Virus record (IMG/VR): IMGVR_UViG_3300009431_000061 | Span: 1-37,231 of that record | Source of the DNA: a virus | Reading direction: 5' to 3' (one strand) | DNA length: 37,231 bases | Shown: piece after piece, positions 5,126 to 23,447 of the stretch | Position numbering within the stretch: position 1 is the first letter of the stretch | Layout: every line of letters begins with the position of its first letter | Notes under the pieces: generated by a model | Database searches by the model: none | What the model saw: the letters and a program-made list of their open reading frames with translations, nothing else | Told to the model about the DNA's origin: nothing | Program-made: the position numbers and the translations under genes

Positions 5126-5515
5126 CTAATCTTCAACCGATTTGACAATTTCAATAATGAAATCTTTTGTTTTATAGACTCTAGTACTCCCACTAGGTTG
5201 AAACTCGAATTCACAGAATAAAGAACCTGCGTCTGCTAAATCTGTGGTGTTCAGAACTAATTTCAACACTCCTGCAGAAGCCTGTGATTCGTCCCAATCC
5301 AGAGAAGCTTGATCTTTAGAGATCACGTAACGATCTGCGTTCTTCCTCGTCTTCGCTCTAAAAGTGAACGTCGCATTCTGTAGATTCCAGAGCTCTGCTA
5401 AATAAGTATCTAAATAGAAGTTCAATGGAAGTTGGATATTACTTCCTTCTTTGACAGTCAAATACTGGAAGGGTTGTTGTACCAAACTCCCATCTGTGGG
5501 TACTATGAATATCAT
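5126..5515 (-). CDS. BppU N-terminal-domain-like protein, second copy
   Basis: A 129-residue protein with the same general plan as the next gene: a conserved hydrophobic strand (NATFTFRAKTRKNADRY), an aspartate-rich turn, then LKLVLNTTDLADAGSLFCEFEF and a final strand ending FIIEIVKSVED. The sequence is divergent from its neighbour, but the order of elements matches an immunoglobulin-like BppU-N domain. It starts with an ATGA overlap on the preceding gene. A baseplate or fibre linker role is inferred from family resemblance and position. The two tandem genes look like an old duplication. Confidence 0.5.
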   Translation of the reverse strand: MIFIVPTDGSLVQQPFQYLTVKEGSNIQLPLNFYLDTYLAELWNLQNATFTFRAKTRKNADRYVISKDQASLDWDESQASAGVLKLVLNTTDLADAGSLFCEFEFQPSGSTRVYKTKDFIIEIVKSVED

Positions 5516-6210
5516 GTAATCCTCCTTATATCAGCATAGTTCGGTAGATATTTATTTAACCTACGGACTATATGATTCGTAACTCTATCCCAGAAATGGT
5601 CTTTAAGGAATATGTCCTTATACTCTCTGAAAATCCTGAACCTCAAACAATGATAGTTATCATAATGCTTATGAAACACAGTATTGAACGAGAGAACCAT
5701 CTTTTCCATTTGTTCTTTATTAGTTACTTCCTTTAATAAGGTGTCTGTTATCACATTATGTGGCATCGCAGAGTATTCCACAACCACTCCTGGTATATAC
5801 CAGAACAACTTCTTCAAGAGATCTCCAATGATTCCTGCTTTTGCTACAGTATCAAACGCAAGATAAACATACCTTGATCCCCATTCCCGATGTCCATCAC
5901 AAGAACTGAATGGAAGATAGCCACGGTGTACTAATAAACGGATGAGTGGTTCTACCTTCGGTTCTATATTATACCAAAAGTGATCCGAATGTGGTGAAAC
6001 TGTAATGGCTCGAACATTGCCCTGCTCATCATAACCCGAATTCACCCTCCCATTTGCGTCTCTTTGATTGCTGAACACGTGTGAATACATCCACCCTAAC
6101 GACCCTTCGGCAAATCGCTTTTCGGCTCTCTCAGAGCGTCTCACAGCGTAATCGTATTGCCTTAGAGGAGCTTGTTCCACGATCGCTATAGGATTCAGGA
6201 GATCTAACAT
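5512..6210 (-). CDS. Unknown protein with an SSCDGH motif
   Basis: The protein has 232 residues, no signal peptide and no membrane span. The centre holds a distinctive stretch, LVHRGYLPFSSCDGHREWG, followed by an alternating hydrophobic strand (RYVYLAFDT). SSCDGH-like motifs of this kind appear in small uncharacterised phage and bacterial proteins, and the Cys, Asp and His could bind metal. The C-terminal third is basic and aromatic (HKHYDNYHCLRFRIFREYKD). The ATG at 6210 is chosen over an in-frame TTG at 6216, because GGGAGG stands seven bases before the ATG. It is coupled to the U32-like gene upstream and the BppU-N-like gene downstream. Its job is unknown; it may be an accessory to the neighbouring Fe-S enzyme. 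Confidence 0.55.
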   Translation of the reverse strand: MLDLLNPIAIVEQAPLRQYDYAVRRSERAEKRFAEGSLGWMYSHVFSNQRDANGRVNSGYDEQGNVRAITVSPHSDHFWYNIEPKVEPLIRLLVHRGYLPFSSCDGHREWGSRYVYLAFDTVAKAGIIGDLLKKLFWYIPGVVVEYSAMPHNVITDTLLKEVTNKEQMEKMVLSFNTVFHKHYDNYHCLRFRIFREYKDIFLKDHFWDRVTNHIVRRLNKYLPNYADIRRIT

Positions 6211-7163
6211 CTGCAAGCCTCCCAGTTATCTTCTTTTAAACATTCCTTCTCATAAAGCTCTTTACAATATTCACACTCTAAACAATGATGGTCACACGTA
6301 TGATCCAACCGCTCCCGTACGAATTCTTCTGGGATACCGTTCTCAAATTGTATTCCACAGAAACTCTTAGTCCGAGAAGGGCTAACCCAACTCTTCAAGA
6401 GTTCTGAGATCGAATCGTTGTCCATACTTCTTGTTGCGAACTTCACGATATCAACTTCTGTCAAATACTCCAAGAACTCTTTGGTGAATCCCATCCTAGT
6501 TAAATTAAGCCAACGAAGATCGCCAACCAACTTCTTGTAACAAGCCAAACCACAGAAGTCTCCAACATGTGCTTCGTTCTTCCGACCACAGATATCTTCA
6601 CCAAAAAGGTAATTACTAAACCCGTTTTTCATAAATAAACAATTCTCATTCGCAATCAACTTAACCTGGATCCTCCACCATTTAACAGCATGCATGAACT
6701 CGTGATCGAACATCCGTTGACTACTAAGGTTCACACACTGGAGATCACCCATTCTGAACTCTCTGGTAAGATCTCCTATGGAATCGATCGCAGGATCTGC
6801 TGCAGTCGATAGATGGAACTCTAACCCGAGGTCTCTGAACAACTCTACTTGGTAATGATTCAGAACTGTAATCGCTTTAAGATTCAGGTGATCTAAGAGT
6901 AAGAATTCTGACAGAATCTCTTCTGATTCAACCAAGGTATCAATTAACGTATGATTAAACAAAATGTTCCCCTGGATCCCATAAGTATTGAGCTTCGCCA
7001 TCGTTTCCAGTTCCTTCTCCCAAGTTAACCGTTCACCCAACACCCAAGTAGGACTGAAGTAATACGAGTGTATATAGGGTCGGTAGAGGTTCAAGAGATC
7101 GAAGAAATCTTGACCTGTTCTGTTATAACCCACCGAGAATTTATTCAGAAGTTCCTGCTTCAT
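6204..7163 (-). CDS. Peptidase U32-like (UbiU/UbiV/RlhA-type) Fe-S protein
   Basis: A 319-residue protein that resembles the peptidase U32 superfamily, which includes UbiU/UbiV, RlhA and TrhP. Matching elements are an N-terminal barrel part with YGIQGNILFNHTLID, the core signature LIANENCLFMKN (compare the family NE-x-CL motif), a later DICGRKNE and FCGLACYKK cysteine region, the strand DIVKFATRSMDND (compare the family fKxxGR segment), and a Cys-rich end with C-x3-C-x2-C-x2-C (CDHHCLECEYC). Studied members are not generally proteases but hold Fe-S clusters and support oxygen-independent hydroxylation of rRNA, tRNA or ubiquinone precursors. Here the gene sits in a fibre operon, directly after a 52-aa secreted peptide, so a modified peptide, protein or RNA are all possible substrates. 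The family call is by eye and not certain. Confidence 0.55.
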   Translation of the reverse strand: MKQELLNKFSVGYNRTGQDFFDLLNLYRPYIHSYYFSPTWVLGERLTWEKELETMAKLNTYGIQGNILFNHTLIDTLVESEEILSEFLLLDHLNLKAITVLNHYQVELFRDLGLEFHLSTAADPAIDSIGDLTREFRMGDLQCVNLSSQRMFDHEFMHAVKWWRIQVKLIANENCLFMKNGFSNYLFGEDICGRKNEAHVGDFCGLACYKKLVGDLRWLNLTRMGFTKEFLEYLTEVDIVKFATRSMDNDSISELLKSWVSPSRTKSFCGIQFENGIPEEFVRERLDHTCDHHCLECEYCKELYEKECLKEDNWEACRC

Positions 7164-7334: not shown

Positions 7335-7649
7335 TTATGCATAGAGTGCTTGTGATAAATTGAACCAACCTGAAGTGGTACCTGTCCTGCCAACTCCTAT
7401 AAATACGTAAAGATACCCGTCACTCTCTACAGCTGTATACTTGTAGAAAGTCTGCCCATAACTAGGAGAAGCAGGAAAAGAAGTCCCTTTATCTGGTCTA
7501 AAGCTTGAGATCTGTACACCAGCTCCAGGAGTTTTCTCTATGATAGTATCTGTCTTAAAAGTATGCTCACTCATGATAGCGAGTTCACCTACTTCAAGAT
7601 ATTGATCCTTTAATAACCAAGATAAAAATTTCGCTATAAGTTTTTTCAT
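7335..7649 (-). CDS. Small fibre-domain protein ending in GWFNLSQALYA
   Basis: The protein has 104 residues. The N-terminus is amphipathic and basic (MKKLIAKFLSWLLKDQ). The C-terminal 50 residues form a compact domain with FPASPSYGQTFYKY and LYVFIGVGRTGTTSGWFNL. The same domain, with the same last residues (QA-x-YA), makes up most of the 65-aa protein at 17156-17353. Domains of this kind (short aromatic beta units, with a final W) are common in tail fibres. It begins with an ATGA overlap on the secreted fibre gene, so it is likely co-translated with it and may cap or chaperone that fibre (inference). Confidence 0.6.
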   Translation of the reverse strand: MKKLIAKFLSWLLKDQYLEVGELAIMSEHTFKTDTIIEKTPGAGVQISSFRPDKGTSFPASPSYGQTFYKYTAVESDGYLYVFIGVGRTGTTSGWFNLSQALYA

Positions 7650-9184
7650 TGTATTTCCTCCAGTACGAATTTGTATTTTTTACCGTCTGGTGAAAGGAGC
7701 ATAAGCCCACCATTCTCCCAGTCTTCTGTAATTCTCCACTTATTCATGAACCCTAAATCACCAGCTTCTATGTTCACCCCATAGATATTGCCAAAACGAT
7801 TACCTGGAGCTCCTATGTCTCCATTGCCGTCTCCAGAAGGATCGATATCATCACACTCCAGAGCAGCGAACTCAACACTACTGGAAGTCATAACATTTTG
7901 ATCCATATCATAAAGTTCATTCGCACCCTGACCTGTGTTGACTGTTAAGAAGGTGACCGCACTAGCCGTAGTTAAGTGCTGTCCTGTGTTGTAAGTTAAC
8001 TGAGTGTCACCTATCGCATTCGGAGTTACGCTTAACGTTACTGTTGAATTCGCTCCACCATCTGTTCGTGTGATCGCAGTACCTGCAGTTAAAGCACGTT
8101 CAGCTGAAAGATCTCCTGTGTTCGATATAGTCACGAAGGTTGCATCTGCAGGAGCCGTAGGATCTCCAATTTCGATTCCTCTAAAATTCACGAATACGCC
8201 TGAAGTCGTAGAGTCTGTGATAAGTAATGGTTTATTAATCTGTCCAACGCTCGAAGGTGCAGTATTCGTTAGAGCTCCCGCTACAGTTGGAGATAAGAAG
8301 TACGTATCTCCTTCGACCAACCCTGAGAGTGTATCACAATAACCAGCGAAGAGGATCGTAAAATTATTAGGATCCGTGACATAAGAGACAATGCCAACTA
8401 CTTCTGCATTAGCGACATTATCGGCTTGAGCTTCTGTTAACTCACTCGCAATAGAATCCCATCTTAAGACATCACCTGCAGTAAACCCATGAAGAGCCTG
8501 AGCTACCGCCATTGTGATCGCATCCATAGAAACAGTACCAGAAACCGATGCCCACTCCATACTAGCACCGTTCCATCTCACAAAGTAGTTCGTTGTAGGA
8601 GCATTATTCATAGCTAGCTTCGGCTCTGATACTCCATCATCTTTGACTGATAGATCGAAAGAACCGTCTAAACCAAGCGTGACATTATCGTATTTAACTG
8701 CGATGAGTCCTGGAATAGTGATGTCGATCGCATCTCCCTCAAGAGAGCTGTTCAGCATCCCAGGAATGATCCCAGCGTCTTTAACATATAAATCACCGCC
8801 ACCATCTAATCCGATACTCGCATCATCATACTTGACATCGAGGTCTAAGACCTCATTGGCTCCTGGGTTGATGATCGTCTTATCGAGACCGTCTCCCGCA
8901 GTCAACTTATCATCGAGATAGCTAGGAGTCGTATCAGCTGCAGTTACCCCTACGAATAAATCAGAGGAGCTTCCAATGACTACCCAAGTGGCACCGTTCC
9001 AACCGTAGACTGCTCCTACAGAAGTGACGTAACGGACATCCCCAACCTGATTCGCAAAAGTAGGGAGGTCTACCACATTGGTTACATATTTCCTCCAACG
9101 TTGATCTCCATACTTAGCCCAATCTGCATGGACAGTGCTTGTCAAAAACATTAACATCAAACCTATTGCAATGACTTTTCTCAT
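7646..9184 (-). CDS. Secreted tail-fibre protein with internal repeats (512 aa)
   Basis: The 512-residue chain starts with a Sec signal peptide (MRKVIAIGLMLMFLTSTVHA, then D). The body is recognisably phage-fibre: a YGWNGATWVVIGSS unit and two copies of a repeat (VKYDDASIGLDGGGDLYVKD and VKYDNVTLGLDGSFDLSVKD). Next come an aldolase-free beta domain with HGFTAGDVLRWD, a RALTAGTAITRTDGG segment and a C-terminal NRFGNIYGVNIEAGDLG region like those of fibre tips. The start overlaps the stop of the fourth radical SAM gene (ATGA), so enzyme and fibre are translated as a coupled pair. GGAGG is well placed. It may be either a virion fibre routed to the membrane or a secreted adhesin, and it is a candidate substrate of the enzyme cassette. 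Confidence 0.8.
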   Translation of the reverse strand: MRKVIAIGLMLMFLTSTVHADWAKYGDQRWRKYVTNVVDLPTFANQVGDVRYVTSVGAVYGWNGATWVVIGSSSDLFVGVTAADTTPSYLDDKLTAGDGLDKTIINPGANEVLDLDVKYDDASIGLDGGGDLYVKDAGIIPGMLNSSLEGDAIDITIPGLIAVKYDNVTLGLDGSFDLSVKDDGVSEPKLAMNNAPTTNYFVRWNGASMEWASVSGTVSMDAITMAVAQALHGFTAGDVLRWDSIASELTEAQADNVANAEVVGIVSYVTDPNNFTILFAGYCDTLSGLVEGDTYFLSPTVAGALTNTAPSSVGQINKPLLITDSTTSGVFVNFRGIEIGDPTAPADATFVTISNTGDLSAERALTAGTAITRTDGGANSTVTLSVTPNAIGDTQLTYNTGQHLTTASAVTFLTVNTGQGANELYDMDQNVMTSSSVEFAALECDDIDPSGDGNGDIGAPGNRFGNIYGVNIEAGDLGFMNKWRITEDWENGGLMLLSPDGKKYKFVLEEIQ

Positions 9185-10131
9185 AATTTATCCTCCGACT
9201 TATATAAACATTGTCTGTTCTTATAAACATACCGCTGAGCGTAGTAAGTCTTCCAACACATTCCTGGACAAGTCTCCTGCTCTGCACATGTATCGCATCC
9301 ATACCAATCGATTACTTGTTGGTATCCATAGTTCAAATACTCTTCGTCATATGCCAAACGGTTCCATTCCTCATCCTCAATCCAAGAAGGTCTCCTCGTG
9401 AAGCCTGCACAAGTGAAGACTCCTTTTGGAGTGATCACTCTAAGAGTATTCGCAACACAACGAACCCCCAAGTGCATCTCTGGGATTCGCATGTTCTTGT
9501 ATGAGTAACTGAATCCATCGAACATCACTGGCTCTTCCCAATCGATCCTAGCATACTGACCGAGTTGCTCTAAGTACTCTTCATGCTGCATCTTCTCATC
9601 TGCAACTAGAACTGCGATTCTCGAGATCTTCCCAATCTTCGCCAAATTCTCAAAATAAAGTTTCTTCTTCTCAGGAGTCATAATCCTCAACGTACTAAAA
9701 GGTACTTGAAGATTCACCTGATGGTGATCTCTCAAATATTGAGCGAACTCTATACCTAGATCACTCACATTCTCCAGAGATATCGGCATATCAACACACC
9801 CGTTACCTCCAATGAACCGCTGAACTCCTTGTATCAAACGGAGGATGTTCTTCCTATAGGATTCGTCTTTCACAAGACTATCCATGAATAACTCGCCACC
9901 GAAGAGCCTTACGACATTACTTCTTTCATCAAAATCTCTCGAAGAGAAAAACTCAATAACATGTTTGAATAAGTTCTCCCAATCTTGTGCACCCACGACA
10001 GACCGATTCAGGAAGCAGAATTTACAGCCTCCCTGACATTCCGCTGTAGGAAGTATGGCTACCTCCTGCATTGTTGGATTCAATCTCCGTTCTAACATTA
10101 TACTAGATGTTCGTGTCATTACAGATTCCAT
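9181..10131 (-). CDS. Radical SAM protein 4 with C-terminal SPASM-like cluster
   Basis: The protein has 316 residues. The radical SAM motif is C32-QGG-C36-KF-C39, the three cysteines that bind the [4Fe-4S] cluster used to cleave S-adenosylmethionine. A GGELFMD segment follows (compare the GGEP motif). Near the C-terminus lies a cysteine cluster, CDTCAEQETCPGMC, matching the SPASM pattern that holds auxiliary Fe-S clusters in peptide-modifying enzymes such as sactionine synthases and anaerobic sulfatase maturases. It overlaps the preceding radical SAM gene by 29 bases and the following fibre gene by four. ATG at 10131 is assumed; in-frame ATGs at 10119 and 10098 also exist, without better ribosome sites. 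Substrate and reaction are unknown. Confidence 0.85.
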   Translation of the reverse strand: MESVMTRTSSIMLERRLNPTMQEVAILPTAECQGGCKFCFLNRSVVGAQDWENLFKHVIEFFSSRDFDERSNVVRLFGGELFMDSLVKDESYRKNILRLIQGVQRFIGGNGCVDMPISLENVSDLGIEFAQYLRDHHQVNLQVPFSTLRIMTPEKKKLYFENLAKIGKISRIAVLVADEKMQHEEYLEQLGQYARIDWEEPVMFDGFSYSYKNMRIPEMHLGVRCVANTLRVITPKGVFTCAGFTRRPSWIEDEEWNRLAYDEEYLNYGYQQVIDWYGCDTCAEQETCPGMCWKTYYAQRYVYKNRQCLYKSEDKL

Positions 10132-11302
10132 AATTCTCTCTCATGAATTTAACGAATCTCTTAGCACCAATACACTCTGAAGATCCATCATAATCAGCTT
10201 TATACATCTCATAAAGACACCTACCTGCGTATTCGCAAGTTAAACAATCCATCCTCATCCCTGTGAGTCGTTGTCTCGCTAGATGACTTTTTCTTTTATG
10301 TCCTTCAATAATATCTTTGAATGTAACCCCCTCTTTCAGTCTACCGAACTCTTGTAGGTACTCAGAGTGATCTTGACCTTCTCCCATATAAAGAAACCGA
10401 AGCCAACCATCGATAAAAATCGTCTCTCCACCGAGATCTGTGGCTATATCGTTGTTGTGACAAGTATCATGAACCATCCCAGACATATGTGGAGAACCTC
10501 TATCAATTAATTCTTGGTGACACTCAATTGCAAATTGTGTGAATTCCTCCATATTCGCTGCATAATTATTCCATTTATCCCACTGACCTTTAATAGGGAT
10601 GAAAGGCTTCAACGAGAACCCTCCAATAATATCGTATTCTTCCAAAGTGTCGATATAATACTTCGCTCCGAGTTTCAACATATCTTGGTTCACCACCGAC
10701 ATGATACATACGTTAACACCCGCATTCCTGAGAGTCCGAATGTTCTTGAACATCCGAGTATTATAAGCTTCTCCCCTCGTAGGTCCATCCCAACTAGCTG
10801 CAACAGGATAAGGTTCCTTCGTTCTTGCGAATTCTTTGAATAAGTCTATCCAACCACGGTTCATCTGCTGTAAAGAAGAATACATATTATAACGAACACC
10901 CTTGAAGAACGTATTCGTGATTGCCATCAAAGCGAAGTAGTACTCAGGATCTTTGCTTTGAGGTTCTGCTCCATACATTGTTACTTTGAAATGGTGCCAG
11001 TTCTCCCGATACTCTTTAACAGACTGCCAGAGCTTGCTTAGATCGCCCAAACTCAGATCAGGGGACTTCTCATTATCGTTTAGAGCTCTGAGATAACAAG
11101 CTGGACAATTATTCGGACACTCGTAAGTAACCCATAGATGAGGATTAAAGTATCCAGTCTCTACATCAATGATGGGCTTATGATCTATCCTTTTGAGAGG
11201 GATAGCTCCCCACTGTAAAGACTTATCGTGCTGATTGTATTGCTCTTCAATACTCTTATACTGATTGAGTTGTCGTTGAGCAATAGTGCTTGTTTCTTTC
11301 AT
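10103..11302 (-). CDS. Radical SAM protein 3 with C-terminal cysteine cluster
   Basis: The protein has 399 residues. The CxxxCxxC motif is C62-PNN-C66-PA-C69, unusually far from the N-terminus because of a hydrophilic 50-residue lead. KVTMYGAEPQ stands in place of the usual GGEP loop. The C-terminal part has a CLTCEYAGRC cluster followed by a further cysteine in SSEC, like a twitch or partial SPASM domain. GAGGAA lies close to the ATG. The first 47 bases overlap the preceding radical SAM gene, indicating coupled translation. The length and the extra N-terminal region set it apart from the other three enzymes, so it may have a different role or bind a partner or leader sequence (inference). 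Confidence 0.85.
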   Translation of the reverse strand: MKETSTIAQRQLNQYKSIEEQYNQHDKSLQWGAIPLKRIDHKPIIDVETGYFNPHLWVTYECPNNCPACYLRALNDNEKSPDLSLGDLSKLWQSVKEYRENWHHFKVTMYGAEPQSKDPEYYFALMAITNTFFKGVRYNMYSSLQQMNRGWIDLFKEFARTKEPYPVAASWDGPTRGEAYNTRMFKNIRTLRNAGVNVCIMSVVNQDMLKLGAKYYIDTLEEYDIIGGFSLKPFIPIKGQWDKWNNYAANMEEFTQFAIECHQELIDRGSPHMSGMVHDTCHNNDIATDLGGETIFIDGWLRFLYMGEGQDHSEYLQEFGRLKEGVTFKDIIEGHKRKSHLARQRLTGMRMDCLTCEYAGRCLYEMYKADYDGSSECIGAKRFVKFMRENYGICNDTNI

Positions 11303-12365
11303 AGTTCCTCACATATTTAGCAAAGTTCTTATTCTCTATCAAAGCTTCCTTTAAGACACGGAAGTAATTCTTGCCTTCATAACACTCCATTGTTTGCATA
11401 CACCCACCATTGCACATCTGAAAATGTTCGCAGTCTAGACACTCTTGTCTTCGAGAGCGTTCCTCTATAACTAATGACTTCCTTAAATTAGAGTCCAGGA
11501 ACTTCTTAAAATCGTCGTAGAGATTGCAGATCAAATAGGTTTTACTGTTGTTCGGGCATAACCCAACTGTCCCATCTCCATTAATCGTCATCGTCGTTAA
11601 CATACAATCTCGACAAGAGCAACCAACAAAAGCTCCATCATAGTGACTCTTCGCTTTCCTTAGAATCTCACTCTCAGAGAACATCAGATAGGCACCGCTA
11701 TCGATGAAGAGTCTCGCAAACTCTGATTTCCAATGATCATATTCTTCAGGAGTCGGTGCAATGTCGTTCCAATTCCCCTGTGCATTCCCATCCTTCGTGA
11801 TCGGTTCGAAGTGGAATCCATAGAAACCTCGTTCCACTAAGAAATTAATTAATTGTTGAGGACGTGTTCTCTTGATATACTCTTTCGACAGAGTTACTAC
11901 TAAATAAAGATCAATATCGGCATCCTTTAGTCTTCGAAGATTCTTTTCCCAGACAACCTCTTGCATAGCATAATTCCCCATGAATCTAAGATAAGGAGAA
12001 TAAGAAGTCCCGACATGTCCACCAAGACGATCCCGTGCGAATTGAATGAACTTATCATCCACTCTTGTTAGATTCGTCTGAATCGAGAACTTCAGATCCG
12101 CAAGAACAAAACGACTCTGAATAAGGTTGCAGAACGCTTCCAACTTATCTACACCAACCAATGTCGGTTCTCCACCATGGAAAACGATATCCAAGAAGAG
12201 CTCTCTATTAGACAACCGATCTGCCATGGAATCCAAGAAGTGTTTGAACGAAATAATATTCAAAGCAGACTTCGTGTTATTCTTCTGATTGTAGCAATGC
12301 AAACAATTCAGATTGCAAGCTTCTGTAGGCTTCAAATACATAGTTATCTTATCCTTCAACAACAT
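11256..12365 (-). CDS. Radical SAM/SPASM protein 2
   Basis: The protein has 369 residues starting at 12365 (MLLKDKITMYLKPTEACN), which has GGGAG at the right distance. A longer in-frame reading from 12518 lies inside the preceding gene and is rejected. The motif C17-NLN-C21-LH-C24 and a perfect FHGGEPTL are seen, so the S-adenosylmethionine binding core is intact. The C-terminal CLDCEHFQMCNGGCMQTMEC is a canonical SPASM signature, closest in style to anaerobic sulfatase-maturase-like and peptide-modifying enzymes. An extra CSCRDC pair sits before it. It overlaps the gene before it by 17 bases and the gene after it by 47. This is the most canonical enzyme of the four; its likely substrate is a peptide or protein. 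Confidence 0.9.
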   Translation of the reverse strand: MLLKDKITMYLKPTEACNLNCLHCYNQKNNTKSALNIISFKHFLDSMADRLSNRELFLDIVFHGGEPTLVGVDKLEAFCNLIQSRFVLADLKFSIQTNLTRVDDKFIQFARDRLGGHVGTSYSPYLRFMGNYAMQEVVWEKNLRRLKDADIDLYLVVTLSKEYIKRTRPQQLINFLVERGFYGFHFEPITKDGNAQGNWNDIAPTPEEYDHWKSEFARLFIDSGAYLMFSESEILRKAKSHYDGAFVGCSCRDCMLTTMTINGDGTVGLCPNNSKTYLICNLYDDFKKFLDSNLRKSLVIEERSRRQECLDCEHFQMCNGGCMQTMECYEGKNYFRVLKEALIENKNFAKYVRNYERNKHYCSTTTQSV

Positions 12366-13293
12366 GTGACTCCCTTTCCAATTTGACAGCTTCTTTGAGA
12401 CACTTAAAGAACTCTTTAGCTGATGCACAATAACCTGGATCTTCGATTTGTTGTAACATCCAATTTCTGATATTACATCCTTTACAGAGCTCGAAATGCT
12501 CACACAGGAGACACTCATCTACGAATTCTATCTTAAGATCTTCTTTCTGGAGTTTCAGATCCCCCAGCACTGGACAAGGATACTCTTGACCATCCATCTC
12601 TACATCCACCATAACATCTTCACGAATGCAACTCTCAATAAAAGGACAAACAGAACCTTTTCTCCCAGCTAAGTGTTCATATAGATCTTGGAATGGTTGT
12701 AACTCAACCTCCCTACTATCTCTCAACCACTGATGAAACATATGTAAATAAACGTTGAATACTTCAGAGAGTTTCATCACTCTCTCAATATTCTCTTGAG
12801 CCTTCCCCGTAGGGAGTAGATAATTAAGCTTCATTGGGAATCTGTATTCCTTCGCATACGCATACCAATCTTTCGCTTTCTTATAAGACTTCAACATATC
12901 TAAATCCATTAAAACTAGCACAAGAGGTGAATGACCAAGGTTCTCTGTAATTTTCTCGAAAGTCTGATAGAACGTCTCAAAATCTTTGAATTTATCTCCG
13001 CTCACAGAGAGTCCTAAGAAATTCGGATGATTGAGAACTTGATTCCAGTGTTCTGTATAAAGTGTCAAGTTCGTTTGCATAGAGAACTCCATCCCAGAGT
13101 CCAACAACTCCAAATAATATTCTGGAGATAGTAGCATCGGTTCACCACCAATAATTAATTTCTGGTGATTCGGATACTTCTCGTTTAATGCTAACAGTTC
13201 TTCAACACTCATCCGTCCTTCTCCATTCGTCGAACAGAACCAACAATTGAGATTACATTCATAAATATTCTTAATAATCAATGATCTACGCAC
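12349..13293 (-). CDS. Radical SAM/SPASM protein 1
   Basis: The protein has 314 residues. The radical SAM motif C13-NLN-C17-WF-C20 is followed by IIGGEPML. The C-terminal cluster CLLCEHFELCKGC (C261, C264, C270, C273), with a last cysteine at C289, matches SPASM. Translation starts at GTG 13293, inside the end of the preceding gene (eight-base overlap) with GAGGT just upstream. It is the first of four radical SAM genes in a row. The four are clearly related in plan but divergent in sequence, so this is an old set of paralogues or independent recruitments rather than a recent tandem duplication. Its substrate is unknown. Confidence 0.88.
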   Translation of the reverse strand: MRRSLIIKNIYECNLNCWFCSTNGEGRMSVEELLALNEKYPNHQKLIIGGEPMLLSPEYYLELLDSGMEFSMQTNLTLYTEHWNQVLNHPNFLGLSVSGDKFKDFETFYQTFEKITENLGHSPLVLVLMDLDMLKSYKKAKDWYAYAKEYRFPMKLNYLLPTGKAQENIERVMKLSEVFNVYLHMFHQWLRDSREVELQPFQDLYEHLAGRKGSVCPFIESCIREDVMVDVEMDGQEYPCPVLGDLKLQKEDLKIEFVDECLLCEHFELCKGCNIRNWMLQQIEDPGYCASAKEFFKCLKEAVKLERESHVVEG

Positions 13294-14251
13294 ATGCTAC
13301 CTCTATTGGAAACAGATCGACTTTAGAGACTGTCTTCTTAGTTTTAACAGTCTTACATTCTCGAAGGAGCTTCAAGATATCTTGATTCGTCAATGATTGT
13401 AGATCTTCGACATAGATTTGCTCCTTATCTTTCTTGGCTAAATAACGCTCCACTGAGATCTCGTATTCTACAATCGGTGCTAACGTTCGGATAACATTTC
13501 CTCTAGAAGTAGACACTGCATAATCATAATTCTTCCTAGCTGCGAGAACCTTCATTGGGTTGTATTTCATATCCACCATGATATTCGCCAATGGGATATA
13601 TAACCCAGATTTAATCCTCTGCCCTTCTCCGACATACTTATGCTTCAACTCTTCCTTCGCATAGTAAGAGCGAGCTGTATCATAGAGATAAACACAGTGA
13701 GGAATAAAATCCTGTACGAATTCCTTCTTATTCTCAACTAGGTAAACCATGTACCACTGAGACCAGTCCATAATGAACTGCCTAGTATACTTATCCTGAA
13801 TATATGTGTAATAGATGAATTTCTCCAGCACTTTGTCTACCAACTCTTCCCACTCATCAAAGACCTCCACTTTATAAAAGTGTTTCAGGTAGAGAGCATA
13901 TAGAACAACGAGTACAATAATCTTAGTAGGGTAGACACACTGTTTCATATCAGCTTCCCCGTAATTCACCAGCATCTCTTCCATCTGCGGTGAAGTGGGA
14001 TTCTTTAACAGGATATTAAGATTTAAGTTATTACTCAAATTAATTAACTGCTTCCCATTCAGTTCCACTTGATCGAACTCAAGAAAGGTCGTATTCAACC
14101 TCTTAGGATGTTGCATCTCAATATCGAGCAACTTCTCAAAGTTCGAATAATTAAAAGGAGTCTTGCTCTTCAAGATATAATCAGTGTCTGCCTCATAAGA
14201 GTCGAGGAGTTCTCTGAGGTCTGAGATATATTTAACTTCACTATGGATCAT
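13286..14251 (-). CDS. Unknown protein upstream of radical SAM genes
   Basis: A 321-residue protein, without recognised domain, signal peptide or clear catalytic motif. A hydrophobic helix around residues 108-124 (TKIIVLVVLYALYLKHF) is followed by a very aromatic, Tyr- and Trp-rich helical region (about 130-200), suggesting a compact helical protein rather than a membrane protein. The end is basic with a KTVKTKKTVSK stretch. The ATG overlaps the preceding stop as ATGA, and the stop overlaps the start of radical SAM protein 1. Its fixed place between a methyltransferase block and the radical SAM block suggests it is part of the same cassette, perhaps a scaffold or substrate-recognition subunit (inference). 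Confidence 0.6.
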   Translation of the reverse strand: MIHSEVKYISDLRELLDSYEADTDYILKSKTPFNYSNFEKLLDIEMQHPKRLNTTFLEFDQVELNGKQLINLSNNLNLNILLKNPTSPQMEEMLVNYGEADMKQCVYPTKIIVLVVLYALYLKHFYKVEVFDEWEELVDKVLEKFIYYTYIQDKYTRQFIMDWSQWYMVYLVENKKEFVQDFIPHCVYLYDTARSYYAKEELKHKYVGEGQRIKSGLYIPLANIMVDMKYNPMKVLAARKNYDYAVSTSRGNVIRTLAPIVEYEISVERYLAKKDKEQIYVEDLQSLTNQDILKLLRECKTVKTKKTVSKVDLFPIEVACA

Positions 14252-14571
14252 TTTATTTTTATCCTCCCCTTTTTGAATTTATTTCCCAATTTATCTACGC
14301 TCTCTACGAGCTCTAATCGATATCCGAGCTTCTGAACTCGATCTAACGTTTCTTGATTCTTAGACATCCAATTGCTCAGTTGTCTCTCCCCAAAAACCAC
14401 GAAGAACTCAATTGAACCAGCTTCCGACTTCACTTGGATGTTCAAGCCACGCTCCACAAGGAGTTGATAAAGAAAATTCATACCAACCAGTTCTCCGTAT
14501 CCTAAGTTCTCGTATAAGGATTCAATACCTTCAAAGAGTGCTGAATCAACCTCATAAATCTTAACTGACAT
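14248..14571 (-). CDS. Unknown 107-aa protein in the enzyme cassette
   Basis: A small mixed alpha/beta protein without cysteine and without a recognised family. The pattern of a strand (SIEFFVVFG), then helices, then a strand (YRLELVES) and a basic end (FKKGRIKIK) resembles small binding domains. Its size, charge and position next to radical SAM genes would be compatible with a peptide-recognition subunit (RRE-like), but no specific RRE signature can be shown by eye. GGAGG is well placed before the ATG, and its stop overlaps the next start (ATGA). Confidence 0.55.
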   Translation of the reverse strand: MSVKIYEVDSALFEGIESLYENLGYGELVGMNFLYQLLVERGLNIQVKSEAGSIEFFVVFGERQLSNWMSKNQETLDRVQKLGYRLELVESVDKLGNKFKKGRIKIK

Positions 14572-15196
14572 GGGATCCTCCTAGTTTTAATAAATCTTTT
14601 ACTCTTATAGGAGTCTCCAAATCATGAGACTCCGTAACATGGTTTTTGACAACAAATCCAAGAGTCAAAGGATTCATCTGTACCCATCGGAGATTCTTGG
14701 AACTCAAGAAGCTCCAGATTGAAGTCCAATCCTTCATCCGAGGGAGTGTATCATTCGTGATCATAAGAACTAACTTCCCTCCTGGATTCAGATTCTTGTA
14801 ATAATACTCAAAACTTCGAACAAAATTGTTACCTATATAAAGCGGATTCACAATGATGTAATCGAACTTTATTGAGAACACGAACTGTTCAATATCTGCA
14901 ACGAAGAAGTTCTCTCGATAATGCGGTAATACTAGTTCCTGAGCTTGATCAATTGAGATCTCGTCGATATCTACTCCATAAGGCACAATTCTATGGATGG
15001 AGTTCTGAACAAGATAACTTAAGAAATAACCACAACCACACCCAAGATCTATCAGCCTACCTGGAGCATCTATTAGATTCAAGATAGCACGTCTGGAAAC
15101 GTCTAAGTCTGACGGAGTATGAACTCCGAAATCTTTATAGACTTCTATTGTGTACCCAATAATAGATTCATGCTCGTCAGTATGCTTCAATTGCAT
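14561..15196 (-). CDS. Class I S-adenosylmethionine-dependent methyltransferase
   Basis: The protein has 211 residues starting at ATG 15196 (an in-frame TTG one codon earlier is not preferred). Motif I is RLIDLGCGCGYF (about residues 47-58), an acidic end of strand 2 appears as YGVDIDE, and motif IV is DYIIVNPLY. This NPxY-type motif is typical of methyltransferases acting on the amide or amine nitrogen of DNA bases or of glutamine (PrmC-like NPPY). The post-motif region KNLNPGGKLVLMIT matches the usual strand 5. There is no target-recognition domain, so a small substrate or protein is more likely than specific DNA. It overlaps the preceding gene by 20 bases and the following gene by 11. Confidence 0.85.
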   Translation of the reverse strand: MQLKHTDEHESIIGYTIEVYKDFGVHTPSDLDVSRRAILNLIDAPGRLIDLGCGCGYFLSYLVQNSIHRIVPYGVDIDEISIDQAQELVLPHYRENFFVADIEQFVFSIKFDYIIVNPLYIGNNFVRSFEYYYKNLNPGGKLVLMITNDTLPRMKDWTSIWSFLSSKNLRWVQMNPLTLGFVVKNHVTESHDLETPIRVKDLLKLGGSHVS

Positions 15197-15629
15197 CAAT
15201 AACCTCTTTCGGATAATAGAACAGTTCTACCGCAGGATCATGCGTCTGCTGTTGTGTACGAATAACATCCGTGAGATCTACAACAGTCGGTTCGAACTGT
15301 TTAATCATATCGTTATATTTGTTGATGTTACTATAGAGCTCAATGTCGTAGTCTCGGAGCTCCTCCTTTTTGAGACGTACAAGACTTCTGAGAGTGTATT
15401 TTCCGCTCTCTTTCTTAGAAATATATGGCAAAGTGTAGAACAAAGATTCCATTAACACAAGGAGCATCCTCATCCGACCACCTCTATCCAAGTATTTCTT
15501 TTTAAGTACTTCCTTAAGACCTGGGATGTATTCATCGTCCATATAAGCTGCCTTCGTGGGGCAGTATTCAGTGAAGCTCTCAGTGTCAGGAAGTTTTTTA
15601 TCTTGTGGAAATAATAGTATTACCTTCAT
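15177..15629 (-). CDS. Unknown 150-aa protein in the enzyme cassette
   Basis: No family is recognised. The N-terminus MKVILLFPQD looks like a first beta strand of an alpha/beta fold. The rest is helical and rich in Lys, Glu and Tyr, with one cysteine (EYCPTKAAY). The C-terminal part, around VVDLTDVIRTQ, again suggests a strand-helix unit. This general look (strand, then C-P-T-K region) is compatible with a small Rossmann-like protein, such as the B12-binding-like N-terminal halves of some radical SAM proteins, but that is speculative. Its start overlaps the preceding stop as ATGA. Confidence 0.55.
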   Translation of the reverse strand: MKVILLFPQDKKLPDTESFTEYCPTKAAYMDDEYIPGLKEVLKKKYLDRGGRMRMLLVLMESLFYTLPYISKKESGKYTLRSLVRLKKEELRDYDIELYSNINKYNDMIKQFEPTVVDLTDVIRTQQQTHDPAVELFYYPKEVIDAIEAY

Positions 15630-16573
15630 CGTATTGGTCTCGCCTCCTCTAGCTTCTTACTTGATGGATAATGAGTTAACACCACAAAGAACATCTCATC
15701 TACAGGGATGTGAGGTCTCGAAGGGATAGTAATCAAGAAGCACCCATCAATTCCTCGATCCAACCAACGTTTGAATTTTTTCTTATCGAATCTGCAAAGG
15801 ATCTGATCGCTCTTCTCAGTGTATACTAACCCAGTCAGAGAGTCCAGAACTTGTAGAATCGGTCTCCCTTGGTAGTATTGTTTATACTCTGGCTTCACCC
15901 GCACATAGTAATCTCGAGTTAACGGTCTGTAATAGACCTCTCCATCTTTGACTACATAGGTACAGACAAAATTAGAGAACTGAGCACAAAGAGTACATCC
16001 ATGCTCTTTCTGATACTGCTTAAGAGCTTCTTCACCCTTTACATCCTGATCTGCGATCAATACTATTTTGAACGCTGTCCGACTAAGCTTGACTTGATCA
16101 ATTGGAATCTCGGGTTTCATGTAAACGTGATCCACTGGTGCAGCGTATTTATCTAACCAGTGAGTATAATGAATCATCCTCCTTCGCAATAAATCCATTG
16201 GGAGTGTTAAATACATTAGATCCGCCTTCTCACCAGCGAATGTAGACAGTTTTATAGGATCTCTCCAACAGTCTATGTTAGGACCACTCTTCCCATCGAA
16301 CAGACATTTGAACGTGTCTCTCCCATCTCTGACTCTCTGCCAACTCACCTGAAACCAATTCGCATACATATCGAAGTACTCGAATTTTCTGGGAGTGAAG
16401 TCTAGGTTGAAATATTCAACTGCGTCTTCAGTCTCTTCTACATCGAAATGCGAGTAGACTCCAGGCTCAAGCTCCTTTAGTGTAACCCTATCTTTATTAC
16501 CACCAAGGAGTTGAGTGTAATAGTCAGCGAGTTTCGTGTACTTCGTATCGTGACTTTCATGAATTTTAGCCAT
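15626..16573 (-). CDS. Unknown 315-aa protein, first gene of the cassette
   Basis: No domain is recognised with confidence. The chain has aromatic, charged segments and a short cysteine pair, GCTLC, followed by FVC about seven residues later, near residues 193-205. It also has a hydrophobic strand KIVLIADQD just before that and a strongly basic patch (KKKFKRW). It is not secreted and has no membrane span. GGAGT precedes the ATG. It lies ten bases after the Cys/His-tailed protein gene and is coupled to the next gene (ATGA). Position alone suggests that it acts with the methyltransferase and radical SAM enzymes; a substrate carrier or chaperone for the tailed protein would be one possibility. 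Confidence 0.6.
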   Translation of the reverse strand: MAKIHESHDTKYTKLADYYTQLLGGNKDRVTLKELEPGVYSHFDVEETEDAVEYFNLDFTPRKFEYFDMYANWFQVSWQRVRDGRDTFKCLFDGKSGPNIDCWRDPIKLSTFAGEKADLMYLTLPMDLLRRRMIHYTHWLDKYAAPVDHVYMKPEIPIDQVKLSRTAFKIVLIADQDVKGEEALKQYQKEHGCTLCAQFSNFVCTYVVKDGEVYYRPLTRDYYVRVKPEYKQYYQGRPILQVLDSLTGLVYTEKSDQILCRFDKKKFKRWLDRGIDGCFLITIPSRPHIPVDEMFFVVLTHYPSSKKLEEARPIR

Positions 16574-16583
16574 AACTCACTCC

Positions 16584-17141
16584 TTATCTTTTACTTCTTC
16601 GACAATCACCATGACAACTTGAATGGCAACTGCTATGACATTCGTTAATATAAACATACTCAGCTCCAGGTGCTACACCTAACACCGTCGAGTTATGAAT
16701 CACAACTCCATCCACAATGATCTCCACTACATCCCGAGTGCTCACAATGTTCTCGATCAAATCAGCAGCATTCGGAGGTGCTATATAATCTGGAGTATCT
16801 GGTGGAAAACTCGCTGAACGAGTTCCGATAACATCGACTGAAGTAACTGTCCTGTTGTATTGCCAACTACCATTATTCAGTTGTCTCCTACAACTCTCGT
16901 ATTTCCTCAGAAGATTGTATTTGTACACTAAACCATCCCCGTCAGAGTACTCATCTGCATCTACTTGCTCTCCTTGTGCGATAGATCTTGAGATCTGCGT
17001 GATCGCAGCTTCCAAGGTAATCGAAGGAGTGATCGTCCCTGTAGTCGAGGCTATGTGCACTGCATTGAAACTCGACAGGAGACCATTGATTGCGGACTTG
17101 GCACTAGTCCAGTCCGCTGCTGCTACTAATCTTACAGACAT
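16584..17141 (-). CDS. Virion-like protein with a C-terminal Cys/His repeat tail
   Basis: The protein has 185 residues. The first 165 look like a phage fibre or baseplate accessory protein, with hydrophobic strands (VVEIIVDGVVIHNS) and a helical N-terminus. The last 18 residues form a striking tail, C168-HSS-C172-HSS-C176-HGD-C180-RRSKR: four cysteines exactly four residues apart, three followed by His, ending in a basic patch. The codons of the repeat units differ (AGC AGT versus TCA AGT; TGC versus TGT), so the repeat is kept at protein level rather than being a fresh DNA duplication. The tail could bind metal, form cross-links, or be modified by the radical SAM enzymes encoded just downstream. 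GGAGG is well placed before the ATG. The fibre role is inferred from neighbours. Confidence 0.7.
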   Translation of the reverse strand: MSVRLVAAADWTSAKSAINGLLSSFNAVHIASTTGTITPSITLEAAITQISRSIAQGEQVDADEYSDGDGLVYKYNLLRKYESCRRQLNNGSWQYNRTVTSVDVIGTRSASFPPDTPDYIAPPNAADLIENIVSTRDVVEIIVDGVVIHNSTVLGVAPGAEYVYINECHSSCHSSCHGDCRRSKR

Positions 17142-17155
17142 AATTTAACCTCCTA

Positions 17156-17353
17156 TCATGCATAAACTGCTTGTTTTAAATTGAACCACCCATCAGTAGT
17201 ACCAACTTCACCAACTCCAATAAAGACGAACAATGCTTTGAGATCAGTTCGATAGAACTTCTCTGCAGGCATCGGTGTCGGAGGGAAAGCTGCTCCAGAA
17301 GGAGTATACTGTCTCCAGGTGGTACCTTTCTTCATACGGTATAAACCTTGCAT
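17156..17353 (-). CDS. 65-aa fibre-domain protein, paralogue of the 104-aa protein
   Basis: Almost the whole protein is one domain: FPPTPMPAEKFYRTDLKALF, then VFIGVGEVGTTDGWFNLKQA, then VYA. The same domain, with the same ending, forms the C-terminal half of the protein at 7335-7649. The DNA of the last 70 bases is also visibly similar between the two genes. The two copies have the same orientation and lie on the two sides of the enzyme cassette. Such small aromatic units act as building blocks of phage fibres. GGAGG precedes the ATG. Confidence 0.6.
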   Translation of the reverse strand: MQGLYRMKKGTTWRQYTPSGAAFPPTPMPAEKFYRTDLKALFVFIGVGEVGTTDGWFNLKQAVYA

Positions 17354-18532: not shown

Positions 18533-19915
18533 TTATACTTGTCTTATCACATCGATTGTTATTTCCAATACCGCAGCACTAGGTTTATCCAAATCTGGGA
18601 AGAAAGACTCTATCACCAGATCTCCAGTAGCTGTATGGTAAATACCGAGCTCACTCGCATCGGTCAACTCTACACCAGCTGGAACTGTTGCTCGGAAAGT
18701 TATTTTATTCTCCGTTAACGTATAACCCGTAACTGTACCAGTCCAGATAATATTCGCCAGATCCGTATCTGTCGCTTGTGGTGTCGCCCCTTTATTACCG
18801 TCCCCAATCTTAATTGTAGTTAACTCAGACAACATCGACTCAAACGATTGATCTAAGTAGATCTCATCTGGTGCAACCTGATCTAAATAGATATCATCAG
18901 GAGGTTGTTGATCGAAGAATAATTTAGAGACTGCCCAGTTATTTGTCAAGCAAGTCTTTATCTGACTGTCTACTATTTCATAAGACTGGTAGTTCTCATA
19001 TGTCATCGCATAAAGCTCAAGAAAATAATGTGGTACTGTATTTAATGGAGTATATTCAGCCACGAGCTCTGCAAGTAAATCCCAGTATTCGTGCACAAAT
19101 AACTTGTTGTAATATCCTTGGAAATAAATCAACCGATCTAAATTAATTATCAGATCAAAATGTGGTGATTTGAATCCGAGACCACCATCGAAATGCCAAG
19201 GTGCTGAAGTACCGCCACCTCCAGCTGGGGTAGTCTCATCCATGAAATATCCATCATCTATGTGTAATGCTTCTGGAGTTTCCCAACCACCGAATTCTGG
19301 TGGTATCCCAGAATGTCTATGGGCAGGCTGTCTCTCAAAATTAAGATAATCTCTCGTCCATAGATCATACAAAGTAACATTCAATCCAACTAAGTAAAAT
19401 GCAATGTCCAGAACTCTATAGGTTCCTTTGGCTTTATACATCTCAATAGCCATCTTGAGCTGATTCCTTAATTGCTTAGTTGTAGCATATTCTGCGTTCT
19501 TCAGTTTGTAACCAATCAAAGCAGCTAGATGTCCTAAGTATCTTTTTGGACACGTATCAATATCTATAAGAGGACCTAGAGTCCCAATCCTACAAGCAAC
19601 GGAATTCACGAGCTGACTGACTGCATGTAGATAATCCATCATGACTGCCGACTTCCTGAACTTCCTCGGCAGCATCTCTCGAAGATCCCAGCATTCCGTA
19701 CATTGCGTAACATCGCCTTCCACAGAGGGTGAAAAAGAGCCTACAATGGTAACTTCCATCAGATCCGAGTAAACTCGGTGGACGTTAGTCCATCTTCCGA
19801 TTTCTTGGAGAGGTCGGATAGTACACTTCCTTCCAGTCTCTGTGAGCAGACTATCGAAGTCTTTCCCAAAGACGATGCGACCTTTCTCAGTTATGTACGG
19901 AACTTGAACACTCAT
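18533..19915 (-). CDS. P2 gpI-like baseplate/tail-fibre connector
   Basis: The protein has 460 residues. The segment at about 120-188 has the Tail_P2_I (phage tail protein I) pattern: TCPKRYLGHLAALIGYKL, a basic helix with LRNQLKMAIEMYKAKGT, then a helix and GLNVTLYDLW. In P2-like phages gpI links the baseplate wedge to the fibres. The C-terminal 120 residues are a separate beta-rich domain (KITFRATVPAGVELTDASEL, then GIYHTATGDLVIESFFP) like the N-terminal domain of collar-type tail fibres, so the protein seems to be a connector fused to a fibre root. A short repeat (DDIYLDQ, DEIYLDQ) forms the linker. It lies next to gp6-like and fibre genes, which supports the call. Confidence 0.75.
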   Translation of the reverse strand: MSVQVPYITEKGRIVFGKDFDSLLTETGRKCTIRPLQEIGRWTNVHRVYSDLMEVTIVGSFSPSVEGDVTQCTECWDLREMLPRKFRKSAVMMDYLHAVSQLVNSVACRIGTLGPLIDIDTCPKRYLGHLAALIGYKLKNAEYATTKQLRNQLKMAIEMYKAKGTYRVLDIAFYLVGLNVTLYDLWTRDYLNFERQPAHRHSGIPPEFGGWETPEALHIDDGYFMDETTPAGGGGTSAPWHFDGGLGFKSPHFDLIINLDRLIYFQGYYNKLFVHEYWDLLAELVAEYTPLNTVPHYFLELYAMTYENYQSYEIVDSQIKTCLTNNWAVSKLFFDQQPPDDIYLDQVAPDEIYLDQSFESMLSELTTIKIGDGNKGATPQATDTDLANIIWTGTVTGYTLTENKITFRATVPAGVELTDASELGIYHTATGDLVIESFFPDLDKPSAAVLEITIDVIRQV

Positions 19916-23174: not shown

Positions 23175-23447
23175 TTATTCAACGTACATCTTCCTATCTG
23201 GAGGAGTGATAATAGCTCCACAGCCTGCTACCGCTCCTTCAGTTACTATCAATTTACCGTCCACAAAAGACTTAACCGTGATCGCTGTTACAGGAGTTGT
23301 CCCATGTCCCGTTATCGGACACGCATGTAAACACCCATTAGCACAAACTTGAACATTCTTAGTACTGAACTTGTTGTTCTGATTCGTCGTAATCAACGAA
23401 CCTCCATGGGTACTCGGATCTCCTAAACAAGCAATATTCTTCGGCAT
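23175..23447 (-). CDS. PAAR-domain spike tip protein
   Basis: The protein has 90 residues. Pro-Ala-Ala-Arg-type features: ACLGDPSTHGGSLITTN, then NGCLHACPITGHGTTPVT, with His and Cys residues that in this family bind the metal at the tip, and a final VAGCGAIITPPDRKMYVE. PAAR proteins form the sharp cone on top of the gp5-type spike of contractile tails. The ATG overlaps the stop of the spike gene (TAATG), which fits the assembly partner. Confidence 0.85.
   Translation of the reverse strand: MPKNIACLGDPSTHGGSLITTNQNNKFSTKNVQVCANGCLHACPITGHGTTPVTAITVKSFVDGKLIVTEGAVAGCGAIITPPDRKMYVE

Follow-up and report, generated by a model that had tools for sequence, protein, structure and literature searches.

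The 185-aa protein encoded by a minus-strand ORF with an ATG start (16584–17141) ends in a cysteine- and histidine-rich tail that is conserved across its relatives and is linked, in both directions and in most loci by direct gene adjacency, to radical SAM enzymes. This tail is probably a substrate of the adjacent radical SAM/SPASM cassette; its modification is inferred, with no mass spectrum or other direct evidence behind it. The window, that is, the whole stretch of DNA analysed, comprises an entire IMG/VR record of 37,231 bases, which is probably a fragment.

We propose that a flexible C-terminal C-H-x-(S/N) tail would be modified by the radical SAM/SPASM enzymes of the adjacent cassette, with help, in most relatives, from 2OG-Fe(II) oxygenases and a cupin/JmjC-type protein. 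The folded body would present the tail, in the role that a leader has in peptide natural products, and recognition may involve the basic end (RGRR; RRSKR in the window). The chemistry is proposed with less confidence: in each unit, a short crosslink would run from the His ring to the Ser or Asn two residues on, at its beta carbon, and the invariant Cys may also be modified or used as a ligand. The particle would thereby gain a tip that is predicted to be rigid, protease-resistant or metal-binding. We lean towards the broader reading that lytic phages of several lineages, namely phiKZ-like and Rak2-like jumbo phages and other contractile-tailed phages such as that of the window, use a multi-enzyme RiPP-like pathway by which a virion protein acquires a crosslinked C-H-x-S chain at its end. 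One criterion for RiPP-type maturation, a ribosomal substrate adjoining a peptide-modifying enzyme, is fulfilled, with the enzyme class assigned by profile and the modification not demonstrated. If true, the tail would be a chemically new virion part; to our knowledge, no viral structural protein was known earlier to be matured by radical SAM chemistry.

Tail sequence, variants and protein bodies

The tail CHSSCHSSCHGDCRRSKR (16587–16640, minus strand) lies at the C-terminal end of the protein (ECHSSCHSSCHGDCRRSKR), and a like motif occurs in 107 unique proteins. Specifically, Cys168, Cys172, Cys176 and Cys180 (codons 16640–16602) are spaced exactly four residues apart, the first three are each followed by His, and RRSKR closes the tail before the stop codon (16584–16586); translation of the ORF confirms the four evenly spaced Cys, three with His next to them, that an earlier note on this DNA had placed at the end of the protein. 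When the 185-aa sequence was shuffled 200,000 times, four Cys so spaced came up in 3 cases, and the six frames of the window contain only two other C-x3-C-x3-C stretches, both unrelated. The sole other minus-strand ORF carrying C-x3-C-x3-C encodes a 90-aa protein (23175–23447) with CANGCLHACP, PAAR-like by eye.

Codon differences between the units had been taken in the same note as a sign that the protein pattern is under selection. Such differences are present for Cys (TGT/TGC) and for Ser (AGC/TCA, a change of Ser codon box) but not for His, all three codons of which are CAT. Selection on the pattern is nevertheless supported by a stronger test across the 101 relatives ending in RxRR, in which synonymous codons are mixed at the six tail Cys/His positions (52:49, 52:49, 57:44, 55:46, 56:45 and 64:36) while the residues stay constant, save one Tyr at the third His.

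The usual form in relatives is three CHxx units followed by R[GSA]RR, and 101 of the 107 unique proteins end in CHxxCHxxC[HY]xxR[GSA]RR. The unit reads C-H-[S/T/A]-[S/N], with S or N at position 4 in 229 of 236 units. A fourth Cys is present in the window, in the closest relative found (L236, CHSSCHSSCYSSCKRGKR) and in a few other tails of at least four units. The third His is replaced by Tyr in L236 and L304 and by Asn in L374, the latter leading us to drop the idea that only aromatics replace it; one tail (L343) has two CHxx units only. Invariance of C and H is partly built into the pattern-derived set described below, but retrieval of the enzyme-derived set carries no such bias, and every complete locus in that set has the tail.

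Expanded tails are observed in L175 (7832–8515, plus strand) and L177 (7956–8660, minus strand), which carry nine and eleven CHxx units with N-V-P-V / N-V-V spacers between blocks and offer a natural test of processive modification. In L102 (1642–2865, minus strand), a P-T-E-A linker separates five CHxx units from a C-terminal domain that is Hint-like by eye, though not confirmed by Pfam. Among 84,980 bacterial and archaeal species genomes, a single scan recovered only three relatives, all on metagenome-assembled or binned contigs (L317 and L318 in a Rhodobacteraceae bin, L316 in a Bdellovibrionaceae MAG) that are probably phage contigs binned with bacteria. The tail system belongs to phages, often large, rather than to bacteria.

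The bodies that carry the tail show a mean column identity of 33% and no shared Cys, and 57 of the 107 proteins have no Cys outside the tail; disulfides from tail to body were dropped as a candidate because most bodies lack Cys. An AlphaFold2 family model based on a 33-sequence alignment reaches a body mean pLDDT of 87.6 and a pTM of 0.80, with most of the body above 85 and the last 13 residues near 50, so that the tail is predicted to be flexible. No convincing match to the family body was found among solved structures (best Foldseek E 0.11; best VIA-align 2 Z 3.2), which does not show a new fold. In a viral structure library, the family model matches an Atu_ph07 protein and A0A8A6C8P8 (178 aa, 45% identity), by its length the pPa_SNUABM_DT01 protein. 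Additionally, 27 of 33 relatives match PHROG_35144, a 186-aa phage family of unknown function (best 4.7e-129).

The PHROG_35144 profile includes the tail, and the CHxxCHxxCH tail of the window aligns to the profile of the relatives; the window protein, however, matches PHROG_35144 only by its tail (residues 163–181, E 0.023). By hhalign, the window tail aligns with the main-family profile at a probability of 95.9% (residues 163–179), and no relation was detected between the window body without its tail and the main tail family. AF2 gave no usable body model of the window protein (pLDDT 32). Apart from the L236 homologue (54% identity), no homologue of the full-length window protein was found in phages or IMG/VR, and full-length tblastn returned none. 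Carriage of the same tail on unrelated-looking bodies is as expected of a modification substrate or a tag.

If the tail were a tag, it could be a docking sequence only, with the modified residues located in the body or in a neighbouring fibre. The basic R.RR end and the uniform distance from the C-terminus do look like a recognition tag, and the body gene lies beside the enzymes; against this, the bodies are too diverse to present a common target, and L094 and L102 have residues after the motif, which is therefore not tied to the extreme end. Docking alone seems improbable to us, and modification of the tail itself remains the preferred reading.

Two-way linkage of the tail and radical SAM enzymes

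Tail-bearing proteins were retrieved with two DNA patterns chosen blind to the enzymes, CHxxCHxxCHxxC and CHxxCHxxRGR, and the matches were sorted by ORF shape only, not by enzyme content, repeat or GC-rich frame noise being dropped. The first pattern returned at least five real proteins among the matches listed (L056, L066, L074, L094 and L102), and the second returned forty, in ORFs of about 100–370 aa with the motif exactly C-terminal; L160 is cut by the locus edge, and near-duplicates occur among the forty, e.g., L139/L143 and L173/L180. CHxx-repeat ORFs were found in 45 viral records among the matches listed, mostly ending in CHxxCHxxCHxxRGRR, and every one of these 45 records contains Radical_SAM (PF04055) above the curated cut-off, most with four to seven genes. 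Control records, drawn from the noise matches of the same patterns, match PF04055 in 6 of 50 cases, five of them above cut-off (Fisher p 6e-21). When only records of at least 60 kb are considered, the counts are 33/33 for tail records (among the matches listed) and 5/18 for controls (p 2e-8). Near-duplicates make these p values too small, though not enough to matter. The co-occurrence of the tail with radical SAM genes raised in the earlier note is thus upheld, and the case that would have refuted its proposal, many phages with the tail but without any radical SAM gene, was looked for and not met among the matches listed. Short tail queries gave no matches in the phage collection, though tail phages are present there, so the absence of enzyme-less tail phages in that collection rests on the body and enzyme searches only.

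In the reverse direction, viral records were retrieved by orthologues of the window enzyme encoded at 11256–12518 (enzyme 2), with the tail ignored. A CHxxCH tail ORF is present in 100 of 105 distinct viral records, and in the five records without one the sequence stops no more than ~1.3 kb from where the enzyme match starts. The phage collection holds enzyme-2 orthologues in pPa_SNUABM_DT01, Atu_ph07, Phosso, FLC6, FLC8 and SURPRISE13, and the tail protein adjoins the enzyme in all six of these cultured phages; that of pPa_SNUABM_DT01 has the accession QTH80265. Moreover, in 35 of 47 loci the two genes share a strand and the end of the enzyme gene precedes the tail gene by 0–19 nt; the gap is 45 nt in one more, and in several of the remaining loci the fetched piece begins inside or just before the tail gene. 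The window is an exception, its enzyme-2 orthologue lying 4 kb from the tail gene, beyond other cassette genes. Together, the two-way linkage and the direct adjacency in most loci sustain the earlier suggestion that this protein is the best single candidate substrate.

This linkage bears on the possibility that the tail is a metal-binding strip without covalent change, in which Cys and His would serve as ligands for Zn, Cu, Fe or a cluster while the enzymes acted on another target. Cys-His repeats are natural metal ligands, and the absence of other Cys from most bodies suits such a strip, but neither the near-complete linkage in both directions nor the 0–19 nt adjacency to a peptide-maturase-type enzyme is expected from it, and the S/N position and the R.RR end are not required for metal binding. 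An unmodified strip therefore has only a slim chance of being correct; a modified tail could still bind metal.

Two weaker metagenomic matches to window enzyme 2 were also recovered; the one examined (L230) has no C-x3-C-x3-C protein, so more distant enzymes of this class occur without the tail. The first 50 kb of Eowyn contain no annotated cassette. No CHxxCH tail protein was found in the stretches read of three of the five control radical SAM clusters (G085, G088 and G097; L231–L235), which belong to large viral records with 6–12 radical SAM genes, many of them clustered. Some neighbours there resemble sugar or nucleotide enzymes, and a second, unrelated phage radical SAM system may therefore exist.

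Cassette organization and candidate chemistries

Tail genes lie upstream of the 185-aa gene, including one for tail protein I (Tail_P2_I; 18533–19915, minus strand; PF09684, 1.3e-4), whose tail-fibre-like C-terminus matches a PHROG tail collar fibre at residues 365–457 (3.9e-7). Downstream on the same strand follows the cassette, with four radical SAM-type enzymes among its genes, in agreement with the earlier placement of the 185-aa gene just upstream of it. All of the following genes are on the minus strand. Three conserved cassette proteins without a family, of 315 aa (15626–16573; no Pfam/NCBIfam match above cut-off), 150 aa (15177–15629) and 321 aa (13286–14251), are 59%, 52% and 49% identical to L236 ORFs, the first in the matching place in the gene order. 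Between them are encoded a SAM-dependent methyltransferase (14561–15199; PF05175, 5.5e-10), a possible extra tailoring enzyme with no counterpart among L236 ORFs, and a 107-aa protein of unknown role without family matches (14248–14571). Radical SAM enzyme 1 (12349–13293; PF04055, 4.5e-8) has weak TIGR04083/DynA/anSME similarity; radical SAM/SPASM enzyme 2 (11256–12518; PF04055, 2.6e-9) is the orthologue of the tail-adjacent enzyme in other phages; radical SAM enzyme 3 (10103–11302; PF04055, 2.7e-5, under the curated cut-off) and radical SAM-like enzyme 4 (9181–10131; PF04055, 0.019, under cut-off) are 54% and 58% identical to L236 ORFs.

The order of tail protein, 315-aa, 150-aa and 321-aa proteins and four radical SAM enzymes is kept in L236, with 49–59% identity for the five cassette proteins tested and 48% for the orthologous enzyme 2. 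The neighbouring genes of L236 look different by eye, so the tail gene and cassette may move as a unit. Separately, a 234-aa protein of unknown family (5512–6216, minus strand) has relatives in 15 sampled cassette loci.

Across sampled loci, a cupin/JmjC protein is encoded directly upstream of the enzyme in 81, proteins of 239 and 370 aa without known family occur in 71 and 70, 2OG-Fe(II) oxygenases in 44 and 35, and a B12-binding radical SAM enzyme in 31 (including L237, 11404–13107), the last pointing to a possible cobalamin-dependent step, methylation or another. The conserved cassette genes scanned brought up no protease family. In composition, the cassette resembles a group of protein or peptide tailoring genes rather than DNA repair genes. 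hhalign gave no support for relating the accessory proteins of the window to those of 239 and 370 aa, and this homology was set aside; the 321-aa protein is a possible analogue of the 239-aa accessory by eye only, again without hhalign support.

The adjacent enzyme family (23 members) has invariant radical SAM CxxxCxxC and SPASM cysteines. Window enzyme 2 shares 25–30% identity with family members other than L236, and its best phage matches are the tail phages. Profiles of DynA, anSME and PapB match 23/23 enzymes, the window enzyme lying far under the cut-offs, and profile comparison places anSME 4k37 nearest among solved chains, along with 5wgg, which we take to be CteB. Judged from their sequences, the enzymes are SPASM-type protein or peptide maturases; they score far below every named family, so that any chemistry assigned to them is putative.

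In nearly all units, H-x-(S/N) provides an aromatic-x-residue arrangement at i/i+2, as a His-x-Ser/Asn cyclophane would need. HaaB and ScaB form His-to-beta-carbon links in His-Ala-Ala, with the second Ala as the partner of His, and ScaB tolerates Tyr for His (PMC11002830). Like the triceptide/cyclophane systems (XyeB, FxsB, YhhB, HaaB and ScaB), the phage loci place a SPASM enzyme beside an aromatic-x-(small/polar) substrate; unlike them, the substrate is a folded ~180-aa protein rather than a short precursor, a Cys precedes each His, and the cassette combines several radical SAM enzymes with oxygenases, no transporter or bacteriocin context being seen. The cut-offs of the triceptide maturases are not met (YhhB 57.7/445, FxsB 42.5/370 and XyeB 39.5/450 bits). 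The His-Xaa-Ser system (HxsA/HxsB/HxsC) similarly sets a repeated His-x-Ser substrate beside paired radical SAM enzymes, but the phage units contain Cys and the setting is a phage, and the scores again fall short of the cut-offs (HxsB 35.2 of 370; HxsC 16.8 of 267.9). A cyclophane alone leaves the invariant Cys unexplained, which favours thioethers or a ligand role, and Asn at the third His in one record does not fit a ring donor. Cyclophane chemistry is held as a tentative assignment; it was absent from the list in the earlier note, and the choice among the metal strip, thioether and anchor offered there is not settled.

Thioether crosslinks of the sactipeptide and ranthipeptide type, between each Cys sulfur and a carbon close by, would account for the three or four invariant Cys. 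The enzymes share a superfamily with the ranthipeptide/sactipeptide maturases PapB and CteB, whose substrates are likewise Cys-spaced; the PapB ranthipeptide model matches 23/23 enzymes (best 1.5e-16), and the nearest structures include anSME and 5wgg. PapB reportedly uses a C-x3-D motif, which the C-x3-C spacing of the tail resembles. Its products are Cys-Asp thioethers (PMC11002830). In the phage tail, Asp/Glu is absent from i+4 and, apart from Ser/Asn, no invariant residue stands out as a carbon acceptor; furthermore, the PapB score is far under cut-off (NF047865, 60.5 bits against 340), and the invariant His and S/N remain unexplained. Thioethers are the main competitor of the cyclophane and are given only slightly less weight, each falling short of even odds.

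Alternatively, an anSME-like enzyme could oxidise a tail Cys or Ser to a formylglycine-type aldehyde, which could then bond covalently with the host surface or another virion protein. anSME acts on protein Cys/Ser, its profile matches 23/23 enzymes, and profile comparison ranks its structure 4k37 closest of those solved. C-x-(P/A)-x-R is the sulfatase motif, and the last unit of the tail, C-H-x-S-R, recalls it, but position 3 usually lacks P/A and three Cys are equally conserved. The target motif and the multi-enzyme cassette also differ from anSME, most cassettes having several different radical SAM enzymes, and the anSME score (TIGR03942) is about 75 bits (75.2) against a cut-off of 349. We give this oxidation little credence and retain crosslinking of the C-H-x-(S/N) units as the working model.

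Virion context of the tail-bearing protein

The Atu_ph07 study describes 131 virion proteins identified by ESI-MS/MS and one large cluster spanning CDS 170–215 (PMC6102473). Portal gp198 and prohead gp204 agree with the RefSeq numbering of this phage, so that CDS 170 corresponds to FDI40_gp170, the tail protein, which lies at the edge of the virion-protein cluster with enzyme genes on both sides. Detection of gp170 in the virion is inferred only from the range stated in the text of that study, where the cluster starts at CDS 170. The C-terminal tryptic peptide of the Atu_ph07 tail protein ends in ...VDFCHSSCHASCHNSR.

In pPa_SNUABM_DT01 and FLC6, the tail gene is located near spike or virion structural genes. 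Additionally, in L094 (2486–3433, minus strand) the tail motif is followed by a Peptidase_S74 chaperone domain (PF13884, 1.5e-11). Such domains are typical of trimeric tail fibres, from which they are cleaved off; if L094 is cleaved likewise, the CHxx motif would end up close to the C-terminus of the mature protein. The tail-bearing protein is most likely a small and probably minor virion component of the tail or baseplate region, its presence in the virion being inferred.

A search of the open-access literature, with subscription papers outside its reach, found no paper connecting phage radical SAM clusters with a virion substrate. The present result points to a specific candidate substrate, and to a part in particle maturation that can be tested directly, in six cultured phages. 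Its confirmation would extend RiPP chemistry to viral structural proteins, provide many natural SPASM maturases together with the short substrate motif that matches them, and suggest a new type of tip or adhesin on phage particles.

Flanking the cassette of the window, two minus-strand ORFs (7335–7649 and 17156–17353) have C-termini that are nearly identical (VFIGVG..GTT.GWFNL.QA.YA), apparently through duplication of a fibre or spike segment.
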